Below the pieces are notes generated by a model. The model was not told where the DNA came from and searched no databases. It was given only the letters and a program-made list of their open reading frames with translations. The translations under genes and the position numbers were made by a program. A stretch of 20,970 nucleotides of DNA from positions 1-20,970 of IMG/VR virus record IMGVR_UViG_3300009537_000215, one strand, 5' to 3'. Shown here one piece after another: positions 2,920 to 19,523 of this stretch. Source of the DNA: a virus. Position 1 is the stretch's first letter, and the number at the start of each line of letters is the position of its first letter.

Positions 2920-5199
2920 CTATTCATCTAAAAAGTTCAAACTCTCATGTACCACCCCAAACTCGACTAAATTCCTTCTAAACTCATTATCTATAAAAAA
3001 GAGATTTTGTCCTGGGGTAGACCTTTTTAGTAATCTCTGGAACTTCTTTTCACTTGGGTCTATTCCTGCTTTAACTGCTTGAGTTAAATGTTCTAAGATA
3101 GGATTTGGCATCCTGGCTCCACTAGGCCCATCTCTGAAAGGAGATACTACTTGAGACATAAAATCCACACCGATTCCCATAGCTCCAGAAGTTAATAAAG
3201 CCTCTCCCATCCTTTTAATATTTTTCTCACTATCGTCTAAATCTAGCTCACCAGTTCTTAAAAATTCCTTAACAGAATCAGTTACAAACTTAAGAGTACC
3301 GAGCAATAATGTGGTAGAAGCAAGCAATTTAACAGCAGAGAAATTAACTAACTCTCCATCAGGATTTGAAGCCCGAAGTAATTCCGCCTGACCATTAGTC
3401 ACTTTCAATACAGTTGATTGTAAAAAACTAACTAGCTCCGAGGCTATCCTGCCAGGGCTATTGGTAGGAAGATGTCTGAATAATTGTCTTCTTTCCTTAG
3501 CTCCCATTTTTGGTGAACCGTAATTAACCATGTGTAAATAGTACGATGCTAGTTTATTTTCTAGGGTTAAAAGATATCTATCAGATTCCTTTAATAAATG
3601 GCCCTTCGATCTAATTAAATCAGGAGCCGCTAAATCCCCCTTACCCACAAGCTTTTGTATATTACTAATATCTTTAGCATCTAATCCTATGGCACTTAAG
3701 GTTTGAGTTTCCCAAGGATTTAATTTACCTTTCTTTAATATTGTATCTGTTAGATCGTGAGCGTGTATTTTAGCAGTGGTCTTACGCATAGAAGTAGTAA
3801 CAGCGTCAAGCCCTGATAGTATCATATAAGGGTGAGTGGCTTTAAATATTCCACCGGCTTTGGGGTTATACCCTTGAAATTCTAATATCTCTCTAGGTAA
3901 TTCACTAAGGCCAACATTCAATAATTTACTATACTTAGCCTTTTGTCCTGGAGGTAATGTGGTTAAAAAATTTACAACGGTATTGGTTAATGCTACGGGT
4001 AAAGATTTACCGCTTCCTAATTTCTGGCTAGTGATAATAGTGGCTATATCGTTTACAGAGGAAATCCCTGCTTTACCTAGTATGGCCAAACTTTCGTAAG
4101 CTTTAATTGTTTGTACGGCTTTGAAAGCTGATTGATTAATCCCGTACCCAGGCATATTACCTTTACCCTTCAATAGGGCCACAGCATCTTTAACTTTTCT
4201 GACATTAACCTCTGATAAACTAGCGGAATTACGATCAATTTTTTTTAAAGTATTTATTAAAGCATCTATACTATCTTCAGGATTATGCCCGAATATAGAG
4301 TGCATTGCCGCTTTTTTAGAGGATACATCAATAGATTTCATAACCCCCTCGACAAAAGTGGAGTACCCGTAAATCTCATTATATTTACTAAAGTTTCCTT
4401 TTTTAAATACTAAAGTTCTTTTACCGCCAAGTAATGAACCTTCTCCCCATCCTACATCTTCTAAAGTTTCAGAATACTCTCTCAACGCTTTTTCAATTTG
4501 TTCAGGAGTCCACGAACCTTTACCAAAAGATTCTTGAGGGTCTAGCATTGGTGCGGTGGTTTTCACCCATTTATCGACATCGGCTAGAATTAAATCTTTA
4601 TTATGCGTAGCAGATATAATATAATTTTTGTTACCTAATATAGTACTTCCAGATACTTGCATATCCTTAAGAAGATTTTCATTAAGTATCTTAGTGTGAT
4701 GCACTATCCTTTCTAAAGGGTCGGCAGAATTTTTAAATGATGGTTTGTAATTCTCATATAGGTCTATAATTTTAGCCGAGTTCCCTTTCTTAGAAGCAAA
4801 CTTTAATAGCCCTTCTTCTCTTAAACTGTGAAGGTAAAAATTACTATTCCTATTTTTATTTGAGTGGTAGATATTATCTACGTTATACCATTTATTAGGT
4901 ACATTCCTAGTAGTACCTTCTAGTAATGAAAGTATGCCTTCAGTGTAATCTCCCTTAAAATTAGGGTGCAAAGCATGTTCTATATTGGCCACTGACCTAA
5001 CTAAACTATTTATCTCAGCCTTACGTATAACTTTCTCAGATAATTCAAACTCGTCAACAGCACCTTTCAATGCTTCTTTTAATCCTTCTACCCTTCCAGC
5101 ATAATCCTTTTTAATATCACTAATAGTTTTATCTAATCTCTCTAAGGATTTCTTATTTAAGTGTGGGTATTTTGCGGCAATTTTAGATAAACAACTCAT
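2920..5199 (-). CDS. Large internal virion / ejection protein (gp16 position, second part)
   Basis: This 759-aa protein starts at ATG 5199, sharing one base with the stop of the upstream gene (TGATG), so translation is coupled. The N-terminal 70 residues are highly charged and helical (SLERLDKTISDIKKDYAGRV). The middle is alpha-rich without a motif I can name. The C-terminal third has Leu/Ala/Gly-rich stretches (about 620-650, SAVKLLASTTLLLGTLKFV, and about 680-700) that could insert in a membrane. No transglycosylase motif is seen. Position after the gp14- and gp15-like genes and before the fibres, together with large size, fits the T7 gp16 class: capsid core proteins ejected at infection to form the channel for DNA entry. 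T7 gp16 is about 1300 residues; here two adjacent large proteins may share that job. Assignment rests mainly on gene order. Confidence 0.55.
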   Translation of the reverse strand: MSCLSKIAAKYPHLNKKSLERLDKTISDIKKDYAGRVEGLKEALKGAVDEFELSEKVIRKAEINSLVRSVANIEHALHPNFKGDYTEGILSLLEGTTRNVPNKWYNVDNIYHSNKNRNSNFYLHSLREEGLLKFASKKGNSAKIIDLYENYKPSFKNSADPLERIVHHTKILNENLLKDMQVSGSTILGNKNYIISATHNKDLILADVDKWVKTTAPMLDPQESFGKGSWTPEQIEKALREYSETLEDVGWGEGSLLGGKRTLVFKKGNFSKYNEIYGYSTFVEGVMKSIDVSSKKAAMHSIFGHNPEDSIDALINTLKKIDRNSASLSEVNVRKVKDAVALLKGKGNMPGYGINQSAFKAVQTIKAYESLAILGKAGISSVNDIATIITSQKLGSGKSLPVALTNTVVNFLTTLPPGQKAKYSKLLNVGLSELPREILEFQGYNPKAGGIFKATHPYMILSGLDAVTTSMRKTTAKIHAHDLTDTILKKGKLNPWETQTLSAIGLDAKDISNIQKLVGKGDLAAPDLIRSKGHLLKESDRYLLTLENKLASYYLHMVNYGSPKMGAKERRQLFRHLPTNSPGRIASELVSFLQSTVLKVTNGQAELLRASNPDGELVNFSAVKLLASTTLLLGTLKFVTDSVKEFLRTGELDLDDSEKNIKRMGEALLTSGAMGIGVDFMSQVVSPFRDGPSGARMPNPILEHLTQAVKAGIDPSEKKFQRLLKRSTPGQNLFFIDNEFRRNLVEFGVVHESLNFLDE

Positions 5200-7313
5200 C
5201 AGTCCTCACAAATTGTTAATGCTTTAGCAGCTTCTCTGGCTCTATCATACTCTCGTACAATGCCCATATCTTCCAATACTTTTCTTTTCGCCACTTTAAT
5301 CACCTCTTCGGGATTTAAATCCTCTGGTTTAACACCAAATAATTTTGTGGCCTCGTCTATTTGAGTAGTTAACTCCTCCAAGAATTTCACCTCTACTGGG
5401 TTTTTTGATCTTTCTGGAGTTAGTATTTTCTCTTTAATAGAATTGATTAATTTTCTTTGATCGACAAGCCCCTTAGGCACTCCAAATAAATCGCTTAAAG
5501 TGTCTACTTCTTTTTGGAGGGCTTGTTGAACTTCCCTAACTAGTTCGTCTTTACCTCTATAACCTTTCATAACTTTAGCCGAAGCTATATGGACAATCTC
5601 ATCCATACTTAGATCATTGCCGATGCCTGTAATAGCGTCCAATTCCTTTAATTCTTCACCTAATATTTTTACTTCTTTATCCAACCTAGAGTTAATAAAA
5701 CTAGGCTCAAAAGTATTTTCTAAAGGAAGGTCTGCCATAATATCATAATCGGGGTCGTAATCTATATTTGTTCTGAAGTCTAATAGTTTAGTCTTGACTT
5801 CATCTATAGCGTTCATACCTTTTACCCCAGTATCCATTCTCGGAACTCTGGCGGTTTCGATAACTTTTGCTTTAACTTTATCAGGGGTAAACATGAATAA
5901 CCCGTTAAAATTATCTCCGCCTTTACTGCCTGTGAAGGTGTACCCGTCAAACCCCAAGTCTTTAAAAACTTGGTTAACAGAATCAATGGCTCCAGTATTC
6001 CCATCTACTTCAGAAGTGATTCTAGCGTAATCTAAAATATCTTTGGCATTGCTTTTTGATAGACTTAATATTTCATCTCTATCTACAAATTTTTCTAAGG
6101 CATCAAATAATCTACCTTTAACTTCTATATCTGGAACAAGGTCAGTATCATAGAGTCTGGCCAGTGGGTCTATGTCTGAATGAATAACCGTACCGCTTTT
6201 ACTAGAGTTATGGGCTAAGTCTATATTATCAGTTAGGTAAACACCTTCGCCAAAAAATTCCCCAAATCTTAACTGAGAGCCGCCCGATAATTCTGTATGT
6301 TGAATAGTATGACCAGCGAAAAATCCCTGAGTGTGGACATCTTCTGGAGCTATTTTATTAAATTTATAATTACCTAAATCTACTTCTTGTAACTTAGGCA
6401 TATTTAATCTGCTCTCTAAAAGAGCGAATGGTACTACTTCTGGAGTTTTATTTCTAAATACTGCTGCCTCATAGACATTTTTTATCTCTGGTGACATATC
6501 CGGCTTGTATTCTAATTGAGGATGAGTCTCTACTTCTCCTGGGACTTTACCGCCCTCAATATCCTTGGCACCTTTGATAAGCCTTCCAGCACCATGAAGC
6601 AACCCACCTACAGTAGCATTTAAAGCTACGTCAGCTAAGGCCTCGTTGAGTCCATACTTCTCGTTAACCAAATTATGACTGTAAGCTCGTAAAGGAGTCT
6701 CGGCTAAGGTGGTAGTGGCTTCAATGGCAGCACCTCTAGCTATTGCTGAACCCACGGCATCTTTACCTAAATACCCAAATGCTTTTCCTAATGTTGAAAA
6801 TCTAGCTAGTTTTGATGAGGCGGCTATAGCTTTAGTAGCATTTAATAAAGCCGCTGAAGCTCCTGTCCCTCCCATTAATAAGGATAAGGCTAAGGTTTCT
6901 GGTAAAGCCCCAGCTACCGAACCGCCAAATTGTATGGCAGTAGACACTACTCCTTCTGTAACTAATTGTAATTCTTTATCTAATTGTTCCTGTTTATCCT
7001 TGCGCCCCTTCATATATTCCACTACTGAAAGTCCTGCGTCCGAATCAATCTTAACCCCGTAACCATCTAGGGCTTCTTTAGGAGAGAGAGACTTTCTACC
7101 TAGTAAAGAATCTCTGACCTCTAACCCGTGCACAGCCATAACATTCAATCCATGAGATATCAAAGAATCGTAATAGAACGATCTTTCTAAAGCAGGGACG
7201 AACCCAGCAGTGCCGGATAACTCTAGCTTCTCAGGTATTCCGCCTCTGAGATGATCTTGATATTTCTCAGCAAACGGGTTTGTATTATTTGGGTCTAGGT
7301 TAAATCCTGCCAC
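5199..7313 (-). CDS. Large internal virion protein with ADP-ribosyltransferase-like segment
   Basis: This 704-aa protein starts at GTG 7313 with AAAGG upstream and ends overlapping the next start. Residues 125-250 are Gly/Ala-rich with hydrophobic helices (SVAGALPETLALSLLMGG), typical of podoviral ejection proteins. Residues about 330-485 look different: GHTIQHT (H335), GEFFGEGVYLTDN (Y359), GFDGYTF (454-460), then FMFTPDKVK (473-481). This order resembles the ADP-ribosyltransferase fold of phage polyvalent proteins (H in strand 1, G-x-G-x-Y, G-Y/F-D-G, and a final V-F-x-P-x-x-I/V). The expected catalytic Glu just before the last strand is not clear (Asn/Gly there), so activity is doubtful. 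The C-terminal 200 residues are charged and helical. In T7-like order it sits between the gp15-like gene and a second large protein, so it is probably ejected into the cell. Confidence 0.6.
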   Translation of the reverse strand: MAGFNLDPNNTNPFAEKYQDHLRGGIPEKLELSGTAGFVPALERSFYYDSLISHGLNVMAVHGLEVRDSLLGRKSLSPKEALDGYGVKIDSDAGLSVVEYMKGRKDKQEQLDKELQLVTEGVVSTAIQFGGSVAGALPETLALSLLMGGTGASAALLNATKAIAASSKLARFSTLGKAFGYLGKDAVGSAIARGAAIEATTTLAETPLRAYSHNLVNEKYGLNEALADVALNATVGGLLHGAGRLIKGAKDIEGGKVPGEVETHPQLEYKPDMSPEIKNVYEAAVFRNKTPEVVPFALLESRLNMPKLQEVDLGNYKFNKIAPEDVHTQGFFAGHTIQHTELSGGSQLRFGEFFGEGVYLTDNIDLAHNSSKSGTVIHSDIDPLARLYDTDLVPDIEVKGRLFDALEKFVDRDEILSLSKSNAKDILDYARITSEVDGNTGAIDSVNQVFKDLGFDGYTFTGSKGGDNFNGLFMFTPDKVKAKVIETARVPRMDTGVKGMNAIDEVKTKLLDFRTNIDYDPDYDIMADLPLENTFEPSFINSRLDKEVKILGEELKELDAITGIGNDLSMDEIVHIASAKVMKGYRGKDELVREVQQALQKEVDTLSDLFGVPKGLVDQRKLINSIKEKILTPERSKNPVEVKFLEELTTQIDEATKLFGVKPEDLNPEEVIKVAKRKVLEDMGIVREYDRAREAAKALTICED

Positions 7314-7315
7314 AA

Positions 7316-9880
7316 TTATTTACCTTTAAAAATACTGCTCTCATGATGTAGGAAAAACTCAGAGAACGGATTTAAAGTTTGTTTAAGAATTTCTTTATTA
7401 TTTTTTATTCCTTTTAATGGAGAGCTAAATATTTCCCCATCCATTCCGTAAAGGCCCAATCTAGTGCCGGTCGACTTCATAATATACCCAGGGTAAAGTC
7501 TATCGTTAGGTACTTCCAAGGTGAATTCCCCCGAAAGATTGTCAAGCCCACCTGTAAGTAACTCATAGGCTTTCTTATTTCTCTCTAATTTACTAGCCCC
7601 CTTAGGAGTTTTAACATCCAATATAGGAGTTAGTTGAGGTATAGTTCTTTCTAAATCTAAGTTATTAACAATGAATTCTTTTGAGGTGTAATACTTATCT
7701 GCGGCTTTTATTAAGTCCTCATTAAGCCCATACATTTGTTGTTCCATAAAAGACATAGTGATAATAGAACTGCCCCTATGGACAGTAGTGTAATTCCTTT
7801 TAACCATATTTTCGGAGGCTACTTCAGCGGCATTTGAAGCACTTTTACCCCCGTCAATCATAATCCTATAAGCATCATCTGTAGCTACTTTAACAAAAGC
7901 ATTTATAAATTTACTCTTTAGGTTATCTGGGTATTTGTTGGCTATACCGGCTAGCTCTGGGGCTATCTCGTTAAACACTTTACCTCTGATTTCATTTTGC
8001 TTCTCTGTTGGGATTAGTGTCGCCCTGTCTTTAGAGGAAACCATATTCTCAATAGCTCTCTGTGCAGTAGCATTTCCTGATGTATTGTTAGGAAACATAG
8101 CTATATAAAGCATCTCACCAGGAACATCGTATGCTCCTAACTCTTCTACGTATTTAGCGTACTTGTCGCCCATAACTGCCTTACGAGAAATAACCCATTG
8201 TAAAGCTGATCTATACCCATCACTCGCCCCTGCTTGAATGCTTCTGTTTAAGTCCGAAGCATCTGAAGCCATAGAATCGGGAGAAAAGAATTTCTGATTA
8301 TGTGGAGGAACCCCCATAGAGTTTAATCTTTTCTCTACATGGGCAACGTAACTATCAAAAGATTTAGCGTTAGCAAATTTAACTGCATCCTTTCTAATAA
8401 ATTCAGTGTCTACGCCTGATAAATATTCCGGCATGTTTTTATTTATTTTTGTTCTTATATCCGATAAGTGGGAAGATGCCGCAGAGATTATTTGCTCTGT
8501 CGCCCTAGTGTTAAATGCTGGGTCATTAGCGTACTTACTGCCTTTCCCTAGTGCGCCCATAGCGGACTTAACCATATTTGGGATATTGTTTAAAACCCTA
8601 GCAGAAGTAACAGGGTTTTGTAATAAACTACTATCCTTAAACTCTCCTAATACTTTACTAGAAATTAATTGAGTCACTAGATTATCTTTATCTAATTGGG
8701 GTAGAATTTTTATATCGGTATTTTCAATTCTATTTATTAACCCTGCATAATGTTTGTCCACTCCAGGTGTATTTAATCTCAATCTATTAGATGTCTGAGA
8801 TATTAAAGCGGTGGAAAGATTGTCTACTTGTTGGGTAATTTCCCTTTTAGTATCGTCCCCAGACTCCTTAAGCTTCCTGGCAATTTGGCCCATATACTTA
8901 TTTATGTCATCAGACTTAAGGTATTTATATATTTGATTAGGTCTTTCTTCCCCTACTGGAATACCTATTACATCCGGCTCTATCTTAGGAATCTCGTTTA
9001 CTATTTCTCCAGTAGCTAAATTTTTAAATTTACCTTCTGGCAATACCGCAAAAACTCCACCCTCTTCAGTTACCGTAGCTTCTTGCCCTGGGGCTAAAAC
9101 TCCTTCTGAGGTTAATGCTTTATTTAAGGCAGCTATGTTTTGTTCCCTATCAGGAGAAAGTCTAGTTAATCCTGTGGACTTAACAGCGTCCCTGATATTA
9201 CCCTGACTTAGCATAGAGTCTACACCATTCGTAGCTCTATGATTGTTATACATATTGTTACTTTTACTTAAGGTAGTATCGTCATAGAATATTCCTCTCT
9301 TGGAAGCTATTCTTAATTCAGCGGCTTCTATTTGGTCGTTAACCGTTTCGTAAACTGACGCACCTGTAGTTTCATCTAAAGTTAAAGCTATCTTAGCATC
9401 CTCATCAGACGCTATTCTATCCTCTTCAATATTAGCGTTTAACATAGTTTTATGTTGTAAGGAGTCTACATCAGCCAATCGCCCTGTAACTGCTGGTACT
9501 TCAATATTTTTAAATGTCTGTAAAGCTAGATCGGTGGGAGCTTCCGCCTCTAATTCTTGCGATCTATTTATTTCCCATTCTTCCATTTCCTCAAAGAATG
9601 ACCTACCACTAGAAAGCCTTCCAGTAAGAGGATTCATATCATTAAATAATTCTGTTCTCTTTCTCTCACTCTCAATTTTCTTTGATCTATATGATTGATT
9701 AGCGTAGGCACTGGCCTCGGCTTGTTTTCTTTTTTGTAATAATTCCAACCCTATATTGGCTACTTCTCCACCGACCGCACCTAATGCAGTAGTAACAGGA
9801 CTAGCCCCGACTCGTAAGGAAGTTTCTTGAACTCTTTCGTCAATTCTATTAGGTAAATTTATACTAGGTATGATAGGCAT
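7316..9880 (-). CDS. Internal virion protein, T7 gp15-like
   Basis: This 854-aa protein starts at ATG 9880 after a GAGG site located at the end of the preceding gene. The N-terminus (PSINLPN...GASPVTTALGAVGGEVANIGLELLQKRKQAEA) is a pattern common at the start of podoviral gp15-type proteins: a short Gly/Ala helix followed by a long charged helical rod. Most of the remainder is predicted helical and rich in Lys, Glu, Asn and Ser, with no catalytic motif visible. It sits between the gp14-like gene and the gp16-position genes, as in T7, where gp15 forms the periplasmic part of the DNA-ejection channel. T7 gp15 is about 750 residues, so length fits. Assignment is from order, size and composition rather than a diagnostic motif. 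Confidence 0.65.
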   Translation of the reverse strand: MPIIPSINLPNRIDERVQETSLRVGASPVTTALGAVGGEVANIGLELLQKRKQAEASAYANQSYRSKKIESERKRTELFNDMNPLTGRLSSGRSFFEEMEEWEINRSQELEAEAPTDLALQTFKNIEVPAVTGRLADVDSLQHKTMLNANIEEDRIASDEDAKIALTLDETTGASVYETVNDQIEAAELRIASKRGIFYDDTTLSKSNNMYNNHRATNGVDSMLSQGNIRDAVKSTGLTRLSPDREQNIAALNKALTSEGVLAPGQEATVTEEGGVFAVLPEGKFKNLATGEIVNEIPKIEPDVIGIPVGEERPNQIYKYLKSDDINKYMGQIARKLKESGDDTKREITQQVDNLSTALISQTSNRLRLNTPGVDKHYAGLINRIENTDIKILPQLDKDNLVTQLISSKVLGEFKDSSLLQNPVTSARVLNNIPNMVKSAMGALGKGSKYANDPAFNTRATEQIISAASSHLSDIRTKINKNMPEYLSGVDTEFIRKDAVKFANAKSFDSYVAHVEKRLNSMGVPPHNQKFFSPDSMASDASDLNRSIQAGASDGYRSALQWVISRKAVMGDKYAKYVEELGAYDVPGEMLYIAMFPNNTSGNATAQRAIENMVSSKDRATLIPTEKQNEIRGKVFNEIAPELAGIANKYPDNLKSKFINAFVKVATDDAYRIMIDGGKSASNAAEVASENMVKRNYTTVHRGSSIITMSFMEQQMYGLNEDLIKAADKYYTSKEFIVNNLDLERTIPQLTPILDVKTPKGASKLERNKKAYELLTGGLDNLSGEFTLEVPNDRLYPGYIMKSTGTRLGLYGMDGEIFSSPLKGIKNNKEILKQTLNPFSEFFLHHESSIFKGK

Positions 9881-9887
9881 TTTATCC

Positions 9888-10442
9888 TCACTCCGTTGCT
9901 AATAATGAAGGGGCACCAGATATTCTATTGGATATCGGCGAAGCACCTCCGGCACTAGATGTTGTCGATATCTTACCAGGATTTTTTTCTGCTCCTGGGG
10001 CAGCCATTGCAATCTTAGCAAACCCTGTAAATAGTCCGGCTATAGTTTGTATTTGGGAACCTTTTAATACTTGGCCAGAAGTTCTCTGTAACCCACCGGC
10101 CTCAGTAAATAAAGCCCTTGCTTCCCATTCTGCTGCTCTAGTATTCAACTTAATTTGCCTTGCAGCTAGGGTAGCTGTCTCTTCAAATATGGCCATGTTT
10201 GTAGCACCACCAGCACCAGAAGCCGCAGCCCTTGACACTTGCTCTCCGATAACTGTCTTAGCATCTAAAAATAATAATTGATTATTTATTTTATTACGAG
10301 CAATAACTTCATTAGCCGCTAATCTCTTTTCGTTGGCCAACTCTAATAATGATTGCGCCTCTTCCCTACCGGCTTTCCAAGTACTGTAAGCGTTTAATGC
10401 GACTCCGGCTCCAGCCAAAGCCATTAGTAAAGGTGCAGCCAT
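9888..10442 (-). CDS. Internal virion protein, T7 gp14-like
   Basis: This 184-aa protein starts at ATG 10442 behind GGAGGAG, one base after the nozzle gene's stop. It opens with a short hydrophobic Ala/Gly segment (LLMALAGAGVALNAYSTW) and continues as an Ala-rich amphipathic helix, with the family-like stretch IGEQVSRAAASGAGG...ARQIKLNTRAAEWEARALF. This build and size match T7 gp14 (about 196 residues), the smallest ejected protein, which forms the outer-membrane part of the DNA conduit. The neighbours agree: tail nozzle upstream, gp15-like downstream. The Gly/Ser-rich tail (from about 150) looks flexible. Confidence 0.8.
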   Translation of the reverse strand: MAAPLLMALAGAGVALNAYSTWKAGREEAQSLLELANEKRLAANEVIARNKINNQLLFLDAKTVIGEQVSRAAASGAGGATNMAIFEETATLAARQIKLNTRAAEWEARALFTEAGGLQRTSGQVLKGSQIQTIAGLFTGFAKIAMAAPGAEKNPGKISTTSSAGGASPISNRISGAPSLLATE

Positions 10443-13782: not shown

Positions 13783-14730
13783 TTATACTTCGTAACAGAA
13801 CACTTCAACTAATTGCTCTTCTTCCATTCTAGTTCCACCCATACTCATAGCTGAGTACACTTGGTTAGCATAATGCTTCCCTGGCATCTCAGTAATTCTA
13901 GAAGTAAGTAGTCTAGCTCTAGAGAAAAGTAATGCTCTTTTCTCTGTGAAAGCGATACATCTTCGAGCAGTTCCGATAGCGATTGTACCGCCACCAGCAC
14001 CTACTAACCCTGTAGCCACAGTATAAGTGATAGCTACATCGTTAAAAGGAAGAAGTTCAGTTTCAACAAATTTAAAGCCCATGAAAGTATCAGTCTCACC
14101 GTCAACAAGAGCTTTTACATTGGCGTAATCGGCAGAAGTAACTTCTGTCTGGCCAAGTAAATCATCTGATTGTTGAGCAGCGATAGCGAAAATTAACTTT
14201 TCACCTTTTCGGATAGCTTCATTTTGCTTAAATTTCTTTCTAAGTGCTCTAAGAGTCACAACATTTAAGCCAATCCCGATAGCTGAAACACCATCGAAAG
14301 CAGCTAACTTTTGAGAGTCAGGAAGAGCGATAGGAGTTTGTCCTTTCTTTCCACCATAAGCATTCCCTAAAGCACCATCGATGATAATCTCATCCATCTT
14401 TCTACCCATAGATTGAGCCATTGCTATTGCATCTTCTGACTCTGGGGTATGAATAACTCTTAATTTATCTTCTTCATCTACTAAGAAAGCGTCATACCAA
14501 TCTTCTAATACGACCATTCTACGTGAGTAGTCTGGAGTACTATAGATCACATCTGAGTGACGACCTTCTTTTCTTTTCATTTCAGTGGTGCCTCGTCTGT
14601 CATAAAACTTAGCTTCACCGTTGTGCATCTCTTCACGAATGAATGGATACAATCTAGATTCTGATTGCTGGGATAAGTGCATCACGTTTGCTGAGAACAT
14701 ATCCACAAAACTATTGTCAATATCTGCCAT
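13783..14730 (-). CDS. Major capsid protein (HK97-fold, BPP-1-like)
   Basis: This 315-aa protein starts at ATG 14730 behind TTTGGAGG. It opens with FVDMFSANVMHLSQQSESRLYPFI, followed by FYDRRGTTEMKRKEGRHSDVIYSTPDYSRRMVVLEDWYDAFLVDEEDKLR, a run resembling capsid proteins of BPP-1-like and many environmental podoviruses. Downstream features fit the HK97 fold: a long spine-like helix (AIAMAQSMGRKMDEIIIDGAL), a middle LRALRKKFKQNEA helix, and strand-rich A-domain ending in ALLFSRARLLTSRIT. Length is close to the family's. It follows the scaffold gene after a dedicated terminator, promoter and leader, consistent with the need for hundreds of copies per virion. I see no protease gene nearby, so scaffold removal may not need one. 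Confidence 0.88.
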   Translation of the reverse strand: MADIDNSFVDMFSANVMHLSQQSESRLYPFIREEMHNGEAKFYDRRGTTEMKRKEGRHSDVIYSTPDYSRRMVVLEDWYDAFLVDEEDKLRVIHTPESEDAIAMAQSMGRKMDEIIIDGALGNAYGGKKGQTPIALPDSQKLAAFDGVSAIGIGLNVVTLRALRKKFKQNEAIRKGEKLIFAIAAQQSDDLLGQTEVTSADYANVKALVDGETDTFMGFKFVETELLPFNDVAITYTVATGLVGAGGGTIAIGTARRCIAFTEKRALLFSRARLLTSRITEMPGKHYANQVYSAMSMGGTRMEEEQLVEVFCYEV

Positions 14731-14965: not shown

Positions 14966-15901
14966 TTATTTCCCTGCTGATTTCCATTTGAATAATTGTT
15001 CCATTTCTTTTACGACATCCACATGTCTAGCATCTCTACTATTAAAATAAGGGCCATTCTTATCTGCCATAATTGAATTAATTTTGGCTTGAGCCTCAGA
15101 AGGAGTTAAAGCCCCACTACTCATTTGAGTGCCACCAAACCCATCTTCCTTATAAACCTTAGAAGCCATACTTACTAAAGCCCGTATAATCGCTGGGTTA
15201 GAACCAATAGAAGGGTCACTAAAAACTTTTCGATCTGCTTCTGAAACTGTTTCTTTAATAAATCTATGAGCAAGTCCAATCTTATACTCATACGCATTTC
15301 CGTATTCTTTTTTAATTTCTGCAATACCTTCATTGATTTTATTGGCCGACATTGAGGCCTCTTGAGTACCGGTAGCTTCTACCTGGCTCTCTAAAAACCC
15401 GACCATCTTCTGTGCAACACTAACAGGTATTTTATTCTCATGGGCAAATTTCTTTAAATCCCCTAAGAAAGTATCATCTAGTTTACTATTTTCAGATTTC
15501 TTAACTTCATACTTTTCAGCTTCTTTCGCCCAACCAAGTTTCTCCCAAAACGCCGCCACTTCTTCTGGAGTAGATTTATCTGTAGGTAATACTACCTTAT
15601 CCACACCCATCTGCTTCTTAGTATTAACGTATGATTTCATTAAGTTAGCGTAGTTAAGCTTTCCTTCTTTATCCACAAAAGGTTTTACAGAAGGCTCTAA
15701 TTTAATTGCGTCCTCTAATCCTTCTGGGAATTGAGGAGTTATTTCCCCGTACATCCCTTTCAATCCTTCGGCCAATTGAGTGGCTGCGGCTGCGGCTGCA
15801 CCCTCTGCTGGAGGAGCATCTGCTGGAGGAGGATTGGCCCCACCACTAGCCCCATCTAAAATAGCCTCATTCATCAACATGTAATAATTTCCTAATTTCA
15901 T
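14966..15901 (-). CDS. Scaffolding protein
   Basis: This 311-aa protein starts at ATG 15901, overlapping the previous stop by four bases (ATGA) with GAGGAG upstream; Met8 is an alternative start. Residues 18-45 are a Gly, Pro and Ala-rich linker (ANPPPADAPPAEGAAAAAA). The rest is Lys/Glu-rich and mostly helical, with SKLDDTFLGDLKKFAHENKIPVSVAQKMVGF resembling helical segments of podoviral scaffold proteins, and a basic C-terminal end (MEQLFKWKSAGK) of the kind that binds coat protein in P22. The gene lies directly before the capsid gene. It would fill the procapsid during assembly and then leave or be degraded. No serine-protease motif is seen in it. Confidence 0.8.
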   Translation of the reverse strand: MKLGNYYMLMNEAILDGASGGANPPPADAPPAEGAAAAAATQLAEGLKGMYGEITPQFPEGLEDAIKLEPSVKPFVDKEGKLNYANLMKSYVNTKKQMGVDKVVLPTDKSTPEEVAAFWEKLGWAKEAEKYEVKKSENSKLDDTFLGDLKKFAHENKIPVSVAQKMVGFLESQVEATGTQEASMSANKINEGIAEIKKEYGNAYEYKIGLAHRFIKETVSEADRKVFSDPSIGSNPAIIRALVSMASKVYKEDGFGGTQMSSGALTPSEAQAKINSIMADKNGPYFNSRDARHVDVVKEMEQLFKWKSAGK

Positions 15902-16203
15902 TTAAAAATCTCCTCCTGCTCGTCCCTGATTTGCTCAAGTAGTTTTATATAAGTCCCTGGGTCTAATTGAATTGCTTGTATTATTTTTAGGACTACCGAT
16001 CGGCATCCTTCCTTAAACGCTAAACCTTGAGGAGTTATGTCTGAGCCAGCTTCCATTAATCCGCAGGATGCTATTAAATCTTTTAATACCTCTTGCCCAT
16101 CATGGTCGCCAAACACCTTTTTATAAAGGACGTTAACCTCTAAAGCTTTCTTCGTAATTTTCTCGTTCTTAGACGGGTCTACTTTGGTTTGCATCTGCCT
16201 CAC
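15898..16203 (-). CDS. Small Bbp19-like phage protein
   Basis: This small, mostly helical protein of up to 101 aa overlaps the portal gene's 3' end by 35 bases and the scaffold start by four. The longest start is GTG 16203; ATG 16194 (MQTKVDPSK) would give 98 aa, and neither has an ideally spaced ribosome site. Its second half (GLAFKEGCRSVVLKIIQAIQLDPGTYIKLL) follows the pattern 'f.eGkR.v.l.il..i..d' seen in small proteins placed between portal and scaffold in BPP-1-like phages (Bbp19 type). Function is unknown; location suggests a role in head assembly. Confidence 0.65.
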   Translation of the reverse strand: MRQMQTKVDPSKNEKITKKALEVNVLYKKVFGDHDGQEVLKDLIASCGLMEAGSDITPQGLAFKEGCRSVVLKIIQAIQLDPGTYIKLLEQIRDEQEEIFK

Positions 16204-17797
16204 TCATTTTCTTTATAGTTTCTGCTTCAGATACACCCTGCTCTCTTTCGGCTGCCTGTTGCATTGCTTCTTGTCTAGCTTTTCTTATTTTGTTCACATC
16301 CGCCTCAGACCTTTGAATCTCAGGAGGAACATTAAACACTTCAAGATTTTTCCTTAATAATTTGTCCCCGTCAACTATATCTAGTACTTCTGGTTGAGCA
16401 CCTAGTATTGGGGCAGTAGCATTTAATGCTCTGTTAATATTTTCAGATAGTACCGCCTTTTGGGCCTGTGCTATTGGGGATAAGTATTCTATTTTTAGTT
16501 TACCGCCATTTTTCTTCATGGCCTCTAATAATTTCGCTGGTAATGGTTTAAATTTCTTTTTACGAAAACAGATATCGAATGTTCTATCTATCACAGGCTT
16601 TAATAACTCTCTATCAAACCTAGATAATGTGGGGCTTAAAAATCTAAAAGCCTCATCTCTTTTCTGGATAACCTCTGTTGCCGTAGCTCTATCCCCAACT
16701 AAAGTTTTTAACTTATCTGTGAAGAAAGCTTCTTTAATAGATTGTTTAATTAATTCAATAAACTCCACACCAATTTGAACATTTGCCCCAACGAATAAAG
16801 GCTCGGCTTTATCCTGAGTCCTCTTATAATTTACACCAAAGGGTGAAACATCTAGTGGTGCTAGGAACCCGTTATGAGGAGCTTGAAGTGGTGGGGCCAT
16901 AGCAATCTGTGCAGATTGTATAGATACCTTCTTCATTTGGTTAATCATTTTAATATCAGCTAAAACTTTCATAGCTGGAGAGCGACCATAAGTCTCTTCA
17001 TTTATTTTTGAAAATCTAGGAGTAGCGTATGGCCATGATTCAAACCCAGATTCCTTTAAAGTAATCGCATGACTTTCAAGTACATGAATCGAATAGAAAG
17101 GCATTGCCTCTGCCCCGATAGCATCCCCTCGAATCTCCGAAGCTAGTCTTTCTCCAACCTCATGAATTATTTTAAATTTCTTACCAGAACGGGCGTTAGC
17201 CATCATAGATTTTAAGTCAGGGTGTTTCTCTATGGCCTCACCGAAAACGGTCATCATATCTTCTTCATCATACTCGTACATTCTACTAACGTGGCGCACA
17301 TCACCTTTAACATTTTCTCTTAAATTTACTTGGTAAATTGGATGGGAGAAAAATCTAACGGTATCGTCATCATCCTCTTCTTCTCTTAATACGGTAGTTC
17401 CTATTGAACCTAAGTCCTGATAAGTCTCTGTAATCTCTACCTGAAAGTTGGAATCATTTAATATATCTATCATCACTAAAGTGGCATCATATAACCACTC
17501 TAAAGTTTCTTTATCAGAAGCTAAATCTCTAATACCAGATTTCAACCCAAACCATATTAAGGATGGGGAAGTTAATAAGGTATGGAAAGCCGCCGCCATA
17601 TCATCATTTGCTCTTATCGCTTCAGTATCGAATAATCTGTTGGCCCGTTTCTCGCCTGGAACCGCCTGACCATACACATTATCTTTTCTTGGAATTACAT
17701 ATTTAGCGACTTCATCCCAGTGCTCATTCCACACAGCTTTGTCACGACTATCTCGCTCCCAGCGTTTCTTTACTTTTAGGGCTTTAATATCTTCCAT
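16169..17797 (-). CDS. Portal protein (head-tail connector)
   Basis: This 542-aa protein starts at ATG 17797 after AAGGTAG, which lies in the last codons of the preceding gene. The N-terminal pattern (KKRWERDSRDKAVWNEHWDEVAKYVIPRKDN... RLFDTEAIRANDDMAAAFHTLLTSPSLIWFGL) is the hallmark of T7-type head-tail connector proteins: 'w.e...y..P.......D.ta......la..l...lt.p...WF.l'. Length equals that of T7 gp8 (536). The C-terminal 60 residues are charged, helical and Gln/Glu-rich, as in portal crown regions. It forms the dodecameric ring through which terminase pumps DNA and to which the adaptor binds. Confidence 0.93.
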   Translation of the reverse strand: MEDIKALKVKKRWERDSRDKAVWNEHWDEVAKYVIPRKDNVYGQAVPGEKRANRLFDTEAIRANDDMAAAFHTLLTSPSLIWFGLKSGIRDLASDKETLEWLYDATLVMIDILNDSNFQVEITETYQDLGSIGTTVLREEEDDDDTVRFFSHPIYQVNLRENVKGDVRHVSRMYEYDEEDMMTVFGEAIEKHPDLKSMMANARSGKKFKIIHEVGERLASEIRGDAIGAEAMPFYSIHVLESHAITLKESGFESWPYATPRFSKINEETYGRSPAMKVLADIKMINQMKKVSIQSAQIAMAPPLQAPHNGFLAPLDVSPFGVNYKRTQDKAEPLFVGANVQIGVEFIELIKQSIKEAFFTDKLKTLVGDRATATEVIQKRDEAFRFLSPTLSRFDRELLKPVIDRTFDICFRKKKFKPLPAKLLEAMKKNGGKLKIEYLSPIAQAQKAVLSENINRALNATAPILGAQPEVLDIVDGDKLLRKNLEVFNVPPEIQRSEADVNKIRKARQEAMQQAAEREQGVSEAETIKKMSEADANQSRPV

Positions 17798-18137: not shown

Positions 18138-19523
18138 CTATCTCCCTAATATATCATAATCGCATTTGGCCTTAACTTGCAATACCCTATCCTCAATAAA
18201 TTGACTACCACCACCACGCATTGACATAGTGCGACTCATGCCAGGACTGTAATTCTCAGCAAATAATCTAAAACCATCAGCACCATGAGATGCCCAATCA
18301 TGTACTGGAGTATCCATATACGTCTGTCTTTTAGTATCATACTTCCTCTGATACCCCGATAAAGCCTTACGACCGAAAAATGTTTTCTCTTTATCAAAAA
18401 AACATTTAGGTAATACTTGCCTAACCGCATGAATCCCCTCAGCAGGATTTTGATTCCGAGGACAAGTCACAACATCCTTATACCCATGATCGATAAAATA
18501 ATCCATTCTAGTCTTCCCACCAAAAGTCAACTCCCTAACGGAAGCATCATGTGGTAGGAATATTGTACCATATTTATAATCTAGTTCCTCTTCCTTCTTA
18601 TCCATAACCTCGAAGTAATGGTCTAATCCTTTCCCATGTTCCTCATAATAATCAATAACCGCGATAGAAAGTCCTTGCTCTTGGATAAACCAGATAGTCA
18701 TAGAATCAGACATACCTAAATCCCAGAAGGTCATAACTGGAACTGATGGGTCAACTGGCACTCTAGAAATATGCCCCCTGGCCATAAGCTCATCCATCTG
18801 AGATTGATAGTACTTACCAGAAGGAGCCGCGTTCCAATCACATTCATATTCCTGTGCATAGGCTTCGGCACTCATTGTTTTTTTAAGCATGGCAAGTTCT
18901 TTCTCTGGTATAATCCCAGACTCTGAAGCTTTAACCAATAGGTGCATCCAATCAGCATCCTCAACTGCCATATCATAAAGAGACTTAAAGGCGTTCTCTC
19001 CTCTAGGAGTCCCAATAATAATTTCCCATCCTTCCCTATCGGATAGCATTGGAAGGAATACCTTATCCCTAACATCGGGGTGCATATCTGCGTATTCATC
19101 TAAAATGTACCCATCTAAGTACATACCTCGGAAGGCATCGAAGTTTTCAGCCCCGAATAGATATATAGTTGCAACACCGAATTCTTCACTTAATGGAATA
19201 GTGGCCCTAAGTTTTGTCTCGTTAAACTTAACACCTGGTACGTTCCTTAAATAATCTTTAAGGTATTGCCAAGCGATCTTTTCCACCTGACCAGATGTAG
19301 TAGCAACATAAGCGAACTGAGGATTACGTAAAGGTTTACCATCCTTATATTTATTAAAAGAAACTGCCTTATGAATTAAGGTATTAATACCGAAGACAGA
19401 TTTACCGCCCCTACGGTGGAACACCAATATGTTATGTCGTTTAAGTTTAAGGAAAGCGGCCTTCTGCCAATTTCTTGGAATAAAGCCGGTACTAACCCTA
19501 GTCGATTGCTTTTGTTGTTTCAG
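18138..19523 (-). CDS. terL: Terminase large subunit (CTG or other non-ATG start)
   Basis: DNA-packaging motor. ATPase: Walker A HRRGGKS (about 36-42 from a CTG start) and Walker B YILDE (about 139-143). RNase-H-like nuclease: FWDLGMSDS (D about 268), LPHD (D about 326) and HDWASHGADGF (D about 409/416). No ATG exists upstream of Walker A. The frame is open to a TAA at 19547-19545 and encodes a conserved-looking TGFIPRNWQ...KLKRHNILVFHRR. A start at TTG 19427 would leave only three residues before Walker A and lose this segment, so CTG 19523 is preferred; its CTGA overlaps the 74-aa gene's stop exactly as ATGA overlaps do. That gives 461 aa, normal length. A -1 frameshift from the 74-aa gene is the alternative. 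Portal and head genes follow. Confidence 0.88.
   Translation of the reverse strand: MKQQKQSTRVSTGFIPRNWQKAAFLKLKRHNILVFHRRGGKSVFGINTLIHKAVSFNKYKDGKPLRNPQFAYVATTSGQVEKIAWQYLKDYLRNVPGVKFNETKLRATIPLSEEFGVATIYLFGAENFDAFRGMYLDGYILDEYADMHPDVRDKVFLPMLSDREGWEIIIGTPRGENAFKSLYDMAVEDADWMHLLVKASESGIIPEKELAMLKKTMSAEAYAQEYECDWNAAPSGKYYQSQMDELMARGHISRVPVDPSVPVMTFWDLGMSDSMTIWFIQEQGLSIAVIDYYEEHGKGLDHYFEVMDKKEEELDYKYGTIFLPHDASVRELTFGGKTRMDYFIDHGYKDVVTCPRNQNPAEGIHAVRQVLPKCFFDKEKTFFGRKALSGYQRKYDTKRQTYMDTPVHDWASHGADGFRLFAENYSPGMSRTMSMRGGGSQFIEDRVLQVKAKCDYDILGR

Follow-up and report, generated by a model that had tools for sequence, protein, structure and literature searches.

The window carries a T7-like late operon with a putative ejection protein gene

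The stretch of DNA analysed here (the window) is an entire IMG/VR virus record of 20,970 bases. Its minus strand carries a T7-like podovirus late operon, which also includes the genes for tail tubular proteins A and B. The portal protein is nearest to those of Pelagibacter phages of the HTVC010P group, the best four of which show 37-39% identity. The genes that matter for the following analysis are:

18138-19427, minus strand: terminase, late operon
16169-17797, minus strand: portal (PF12236, 4.8e-105)
14966-15901, minus strand: scaffold, late operon
13783-14730, minus strand: capsid, late operon
9888..10442, minus strand: gp14-like internal virion protein (phrog_418, 2e-6)
7316..9880, minus strand: gene in the gp15 position, 854 aa, without a profile match of its own
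5199..7313, minus strand: P0001, 704 aa, GTG start, putative split-gp16-type ejection protein with an ADP-ribosyltransferase (ART)-like domain (phrog_3003, 3.2e-6); syntenic with proteins of L173, L175, L111, L005 and L033
2920..5199, minus strand: gp16 C-half-like virion protein, 759 aa (phrog_684, 3.3e-26)

Specifically, P0001 is encoded after the gp14/gp15-like genes and before the gp16-C-like gene. Its GTG start lies two bases past the stop codon of the preceding gene, and its stop codon shares one nucleotide with the ATG of the next. The open reading frame at 5199-7313 that an earlier note on this DNA had marked does exist, and it lies on the minus strand, which that note had left unstated.

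The N-terminal module relates P0001 to T7 gp16

Three parts can be distinguished in the P0001 protein:

6564..7028, minus strand: N-terminal module, residues ~96-250, of phrog_3003 type; relatives place it at T7 gp16 membrane region I
5850..6329, minus strand: ART-like domain, residues ~329-488, with profile, hhalign and predicted-structure evidence
5202..5246, minus strand: C-terminal tail, residues 690-704, with C702, common to the syntenic proteins

The N-terminal module contains hydrophobic stretches at residues ~117-160 and 225-243, and residues 115-249 give the direct PHROGs match to phrog_3003. The same family is matched by the syntenic proteins of Pseudomonas phage Ab31 (6.7e-241), Stenotrophomonas phage BUCT708 (6e-290) and Vibrio phage 1.182.O (7.1e-45). 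Additionally, the syntenic proteins of 1.182.O, BUCT708, L033 and L022 match positions ~217-487 of the phrog_342 profile, a family that T7 gp16 matches along its whole length. In T7 gp16, residues 243-410 constitute membrane region I, and the part that follows lies in the host cytoplasm (review of T7 ejection proteins, PMC8954989). Because a search with the N-module profile directly against T7 gp16 gave no support, the mapping onto gp16 is transitive, through phrog_342; the same profile gave no support against gp27 of cyanophage A4 either. Since the phrog_3003-type relatives match phrog_342, as T7 gp16 does, and place the module at membrane region I, gp16 may be read as split in this phage and in these relatives, with P0001 as its N-terminal half.

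T7 gp16 resembles P0001 in operon position and, via the relatives, in its membrane-region-I module, but it is one unsplit 1318-aa protein with an N-terminal transglycosylase, whereas a Pfam transglycosylase domain was not seen in P0001 or in its two neighbours. A single 1254-aa protein carrying the polyvalent-protein domain LPD38 (1.9e-33) occupies the corresponding position in Pelagibacter phage Lederberg. The short end tail of the syntenic N-half proteins contains one invariant Cys (C702 in P0001) in 7/7 aligned sequences. In line with its position between the gp15-like and gp16-like genes, its phrog_3003-type module and the match of its family to the T7 gp16 family phrog_342, P0001 can be regarded as the virion ejection protein that the earlier note had supposed, which would be packaged and injected.

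P0001 contains a diverged ART-like domain

Several lines of sequence comparison and a predicted structure support residues ~329-488 of P0001 as a diverged ART domain. The ordered elements by which the domain had originally been recognised, G334-H335-T336, G355-E-G-V-Y359-L-T-D, G454-F-D456-G-Y-T-F and F473-M-F-T-P-D-K-V, are found at the residues given for them. A custom ART-PolyVal profile was built from six seeds, namely the locus of Vibrio phage 1.182.O (L173), the IMG/VR contig L175 and the polyvalent-protein ARTs of phages F116, Tunturi_5, Y3 and DC33, and collected 174 domain hits after four rounds; P0001 and its syntenic relative in L111 were left out of it. Against this profile P0001 scores 18.6 bits and the L111 protein 20.4 bits, whereas reversed P0001 scores -0.6. 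Among 1,380 controls, comprising 690 other viral ORFs of at least 300 aa and their 690 reversals, scores reach at most 7.7 bits, one ORF of L047 excepted, and among 3,000 block shuffles of P0001 (2,335 scored) the best reaches 18.5 bits and the second 12.1. The motifs thus go beyond what control ORFs, the reversed protein and the shuffles generally yield. Additionally, when the single 704-aa sequence was compared with a 6-sequence ART-PolyVal alignment by hhalign, residues 354-484 matched with a P value of 1.8e-4 and a probability of 49%, so that the similarity to ART-PolyVal which the earlier note expected from profile searches is detectable by both routes.

The excepted control ORF, L047:12598-17562 (+), encodes a 1655-aa protein in the gp16 position of a Pelagibacter-phage-like contig and scores 24.7 bits over residues 751-870, which suggests a further ART fused within an unsplit gp16-type protein.

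Pfam PF18760 gave no match to P0001 at E 10, and Pfam as a whole returned only noise. Because it falls below the curated Pfam cut-off, we call the domain ART-PolyVal-like and not a formal member of the family. A PDB sequence search with P0001, tblastn of phage records and a search of viral contigs with P0001 peptide patterns found nothing, and the profile of alignment A5 had no significant match among PDB sequences (best PARP12, E 0.1). Occurrences of the GFDGYTF pattern in viral contigs belong mostly to two unrelated protein families, L111 being the sole relevant match; the syntenic protein there (L111:6840-8780, +, 646 aa) carries the same GFDGYTFTG segment.

Predicted fold and candidate active-site residues

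Two AlphaFold2 (AF2) models of the domain were built. The first, from alignment A5, had strand 1 at low confidence and was superseded by the second. Because the alignments contained ART-PolyVal sequences, the fold prediction depends partly on the ART hypothesis. The better model, of residues 311-498, has a pTM of 0.72 and a mean pLDDT of 73 and comprises strand 1 (329-335), strand 2 (358-361), a helical insert and strands at 457-464, 467-474 and 481-488. In VIA it matches best to residues 1418-1610 of chain B in 9k3a, the structure of the cyanophage A4 pre-ejectosome (Z 11.2 over 156 residues, rmsd 3.5). The remaining 49 matches listed, at Z 7.0-7.9, include tankyrases, PARPs, ZC3HAV1, diphtheria toxin, MbcT, ParT, NatT and 6kyf, and we take all of the listed matches to be ART-type proteins. 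Among the best BFVD matches, several are named ART-PolyVal. The structure prediction that the earlier note had proposed as a check thus points, among the matches listed, to an ART fold.

The triad of the ART-PolyVal clade consists of a His on strand 1, a Tyr on strand 2 and an Asp on strand 5 (H-Y-D; Iyer 2017, PMC5512222). The corresponding positions in P0001 are:

6309..6311, minus strand: H335, at the end of predicted strand 1; candidate for the strand-1 His
6237..6239, minus strand: Y359, triad tyrosine of strand 2, aligned with the family column
5946..5948, minus strand: D456 in GFDG, directly before strand 5, triad aspartate of strand 5, aligned with the family column
5901..5903, minus strand: G471, position of Glu or Gln in some ART-PolyVal members

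In the better model, H335 ends strand 1, Y359 lies within strand 2 and D456 immediately precedes strand 5. Y359 and D456 are therefore kept, whereas the strand-1 His is placed differently by each source: alignment A6 puts A333 in the His column, A5 puts H339 there, and in the model H335 closes strand 1. The Tyr column is itself variable, being Tyr in 69, Phe in 42 and Trp in 18 of 144 sampled phage ART domains, with Phe in L173 and L175 and Val in L111. As Val occupies this position, the L111 domain may be inactive.

The earlier note had regarded the lack of an obvious catalytic Glu as a sign that the domain could be inactive. This concern does not apply, because the ART-PolyVal clade uses H-Y-D, and the 'Glu' column is Glu in only 32/144 of the sampled domains; the argument was abandoned, since the triad of Iyer 2017 contains no Glu. 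Transferase activity of the P0001 domain is plausible from its residues. However, because the strand-1 His is uncertain (A333, H335 or H339), this activity may be weak or absent.

The ART and ejection-module fusion recurs in related phages

The syntenic protein of Vibrio phage 1.182.O, NVP1182O_16 (AUR93058.1), annotated in its record only as 'coil containing protein', carries ART-PolyVal (PF18760) at 3e-17 over residues 310-462, and its neighbour matches the gp16-like protein adjacent to P0001 (1e-11). The contig L175 encodes an ortholog whose ART-PolyVal likewise exceeds the Pfam cut-off. Both proteins resemble P0001 in gene slot, in the phrog_3003-type N-module, in the Cys-containing C-terminal tail and in the placement of the ART between module and tail. 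They differ from P0001 in that their ARTs pass the Pfam cut-off, keep HGT and have Phe at the Tyr position. Because ART-PolyVal lies above the cut-off in the same slot of 1.182.O and L175, the fusion of an ART with this ejection protein recurs. The profile, profile-profile and fold evidence for an ART-like segment in P0001 agree, and these syntenic proteins bear them out with Pfam-grade domains. A third locus, L189, contains the beginning of ART-PolyVal in the same gene slot, interrupted by an in-frame stop; this TAA (L189:4524), inside the ART domain of the N-module and ART gene, reflects either a sequencing error or a decaying gene.

Among 99 N-module proteins, only those of L173, L175 and L189 carry an ART by profile. 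Pfam analysis of 26 of these 99 identified one ddrB-ParB domain and one RadC domain besides the ART of L173, as though various polyvalent-protein domains could be accommodated in this gene slot. Some N-module proteins exceed 1000 aa, L201:3453-7637 (+), L225:3282-7559 (+) and similar ones among them. In L005, whose capsid (59% identical) is the closest among relatives with this region sequenced, the protein is 438 aa long and no ART was detected in it. No ART came to light either when the syntenic proteins of close capsid relatives were searched for the motifs, and two scans of genome contigs for ART or N-module relatives yielded only eight N-module loci, 0/8 of them with an ART by profile. 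Since few N-module proteins carry an ART and none was found in the L005 version, the ART domain is by these comparisons an accessory, exchangeable part.

Comparison with known ART systems

P0001 shares with the ART-PolyVal / Tox-ART-HYD2 family (PF18760; PMC5512222) the predicted fold, the motif order GxGxY, GxDG and a final F-x-P-x-x-[IV]-K strand, the Y and D of the H-Y-D triad, and the encoding of the protein among virion genes. It differs in lying below Pfam detection, in having AGHT in place of the strand-1 HGT, and in carrying its ART on a T7 gp16-type ejection module, whereas ART-PolyVal occurs on N4-type virion RNA polymerases or giant polyvalent proteins.

The nearest structural match, the 9k3a chain, is gp27 of Anabaena phage A-4L (cyanophage A4), and the pre-ejectosome structure was reportedly described by Hou et al. 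in PNAS in 2025 (10.1073/pnas.2423403122, cited in PMC12810830). Its gene is:

L395:20116-25269, minus strand: A-4L gp27, named only 'tail protein' in GenBank; residues 1418-1610, built in 9k3a, are ART-like

Like P0001, A4 gp27 is an ejection-core protein of a T7-like podovirus with an ART-like region, which reads LYHGT...GSGTYFS...GVDAL. Unlike in P0001, this region lies at the far C-terminus of 1717 aa, no N-module was detected, and YHGT and GxGxY are kept. An ART-like domain in a T7-like particle, which the earlier note had envisaged for P0001, is not unprecedented, since A4 gp27 has one in a solved structure.

The comparison with T4 Alt that the earlier note had drawn concerns the proposed role, that of a head-packaged ART injected to modify host proteins at once. 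T4 Alt is a head protein of a myovirus and lies outside any podovirus ejection core. It also has an R-S-E active site and belongs to another ART clade (PMC5512222). Membership of the P0001 domain in the Alt family was rejected, as the domain aligns with the H-Y-D clade and the Alt family is absent from the Pfam and PHROGs matches.

Proposed role of P0001 and alternative explanations

We propose, with a probability of roughly 0.72, that P0001 represents the N-terminal half of a T7-gp16-type ejection protein that is split in this phage, and that it carries a diverged domain of the ART-PolyVal kind, is packed into the virion, ejected, and modifies one or more host proteins at DNA entry. What the computation shows is the fold, the relationship to the family, the place of the gene in the operon and the recurrence in related phages. 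From these we infer that the protein is packaged and injected, how it is oriented at the membrane, that it is enzymatically active and that it has a host target, as follows. P0001 would most likely form part of the internal core within the capsid and leave the particle when infection begins, whereupon its N-terminal module would enter the inner membrane as T7 gp16 region I does. Since the ART domain comes after the module equated with membrane region I, ejection would place it at the cytoplasmic face of the inner membrane, with access to NAD+. There it would use NAD+ to ADP-ribosylate one or more host proteins during DNA entry, like T4 Alt, and RNA polymerase or a defence protein would be the obvious candidate targets. 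Iyer et al. (2017, PMC5512222) put forward the same role for polyvalent-protein ARTs, modelled on T4 Alt.

Several other explanations have to be weighed against this one. That the resemblance arose by chance, in a structural ejection protein with accidental motifs, might be argued from the missing Pfam match and from the one shuffle that nearly equals the observed score (18.5 vs 18.6 bits), yet the independent profile-profile match, the clean background among real ORFs and the recurrence of this domain type in the corresponding gene of 1.182.O, L175 and L189 make this very improbable. A more serious alternative, although we consider it rather unlikely, is that the domain is a relic: a degenerate ART fold that has no transferase activity and is retained for a structural or binding function in the ejection apparatus. 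This reading would account for A333 at the usual His position in A6 with the His displaced to H335, for the Val at the Tyr position of L111, for a sequence too diverged for Pfam and for the residence of the domain in a structural protein. Against it, Y359 and D456 are kept, H335 lies on strand 1 in the AF2 model, and Pfam-grade members vary at the Tyr position too. Moreover, most N-module proteins of comparable phages are without an ART domain, so the domain is not needed for ejection as such.

An active domain could, on the other hand, be an anti-defence effector that acts on, for example, a CRISPR or restriction component instead of host RNA polymerase, a variant of the proposed role that departs from it in the target alone. 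Same-family proteins carry ddrB-ParB and RadC, known from polyvalent proteins, and PDB 6kyf, titled 'anti-CRISPR protein', is among the fold matches (Z 7.1-7.4). However, many ARTs share these Z values and a target is not readable from sequence, and we regard this specific assignment as unlikely.

Going beyond P0001, we tentatively suggest, at somewhat less than even odds, that T7-like podoviruses use the slot between gp15 and the gp16 C-half as an exchangeable cargo bay of the ejectosome. Domains located there (an ART in P0001 and in Vibrio phage 1.182.O, ddrB-ParB or RadC in others) would follow the gp16 membrane-I module across the membrane and exert their effect in the cytoplasm ahead of any phage gene expression.

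T4 is known to inject an ART (Alt), and injected ARTs have been predicted among N4-like and large polyvalent proteins. Neither the type of domain nor the notion of an injected ART is new. A 2022 survey reported ARTs in only ~3% of podoviruses (PMC9503650), and our search of open-access papers found none describing an ART within an internal virion protein of a T7-like phage. The occurrence of an ART on a gp16-type ejection protein in several lineages, together with 9k3a, offers a direct test of whether the ejectosome delivers host-acting enzymes besides forming a DNA channel, for which Vibrio phage 1.182.O, a named phage record with the same gene arrangement, is suited. If the cargo-bay reading is true, T7-like phages would possess a first strike like that of T4 Alt.
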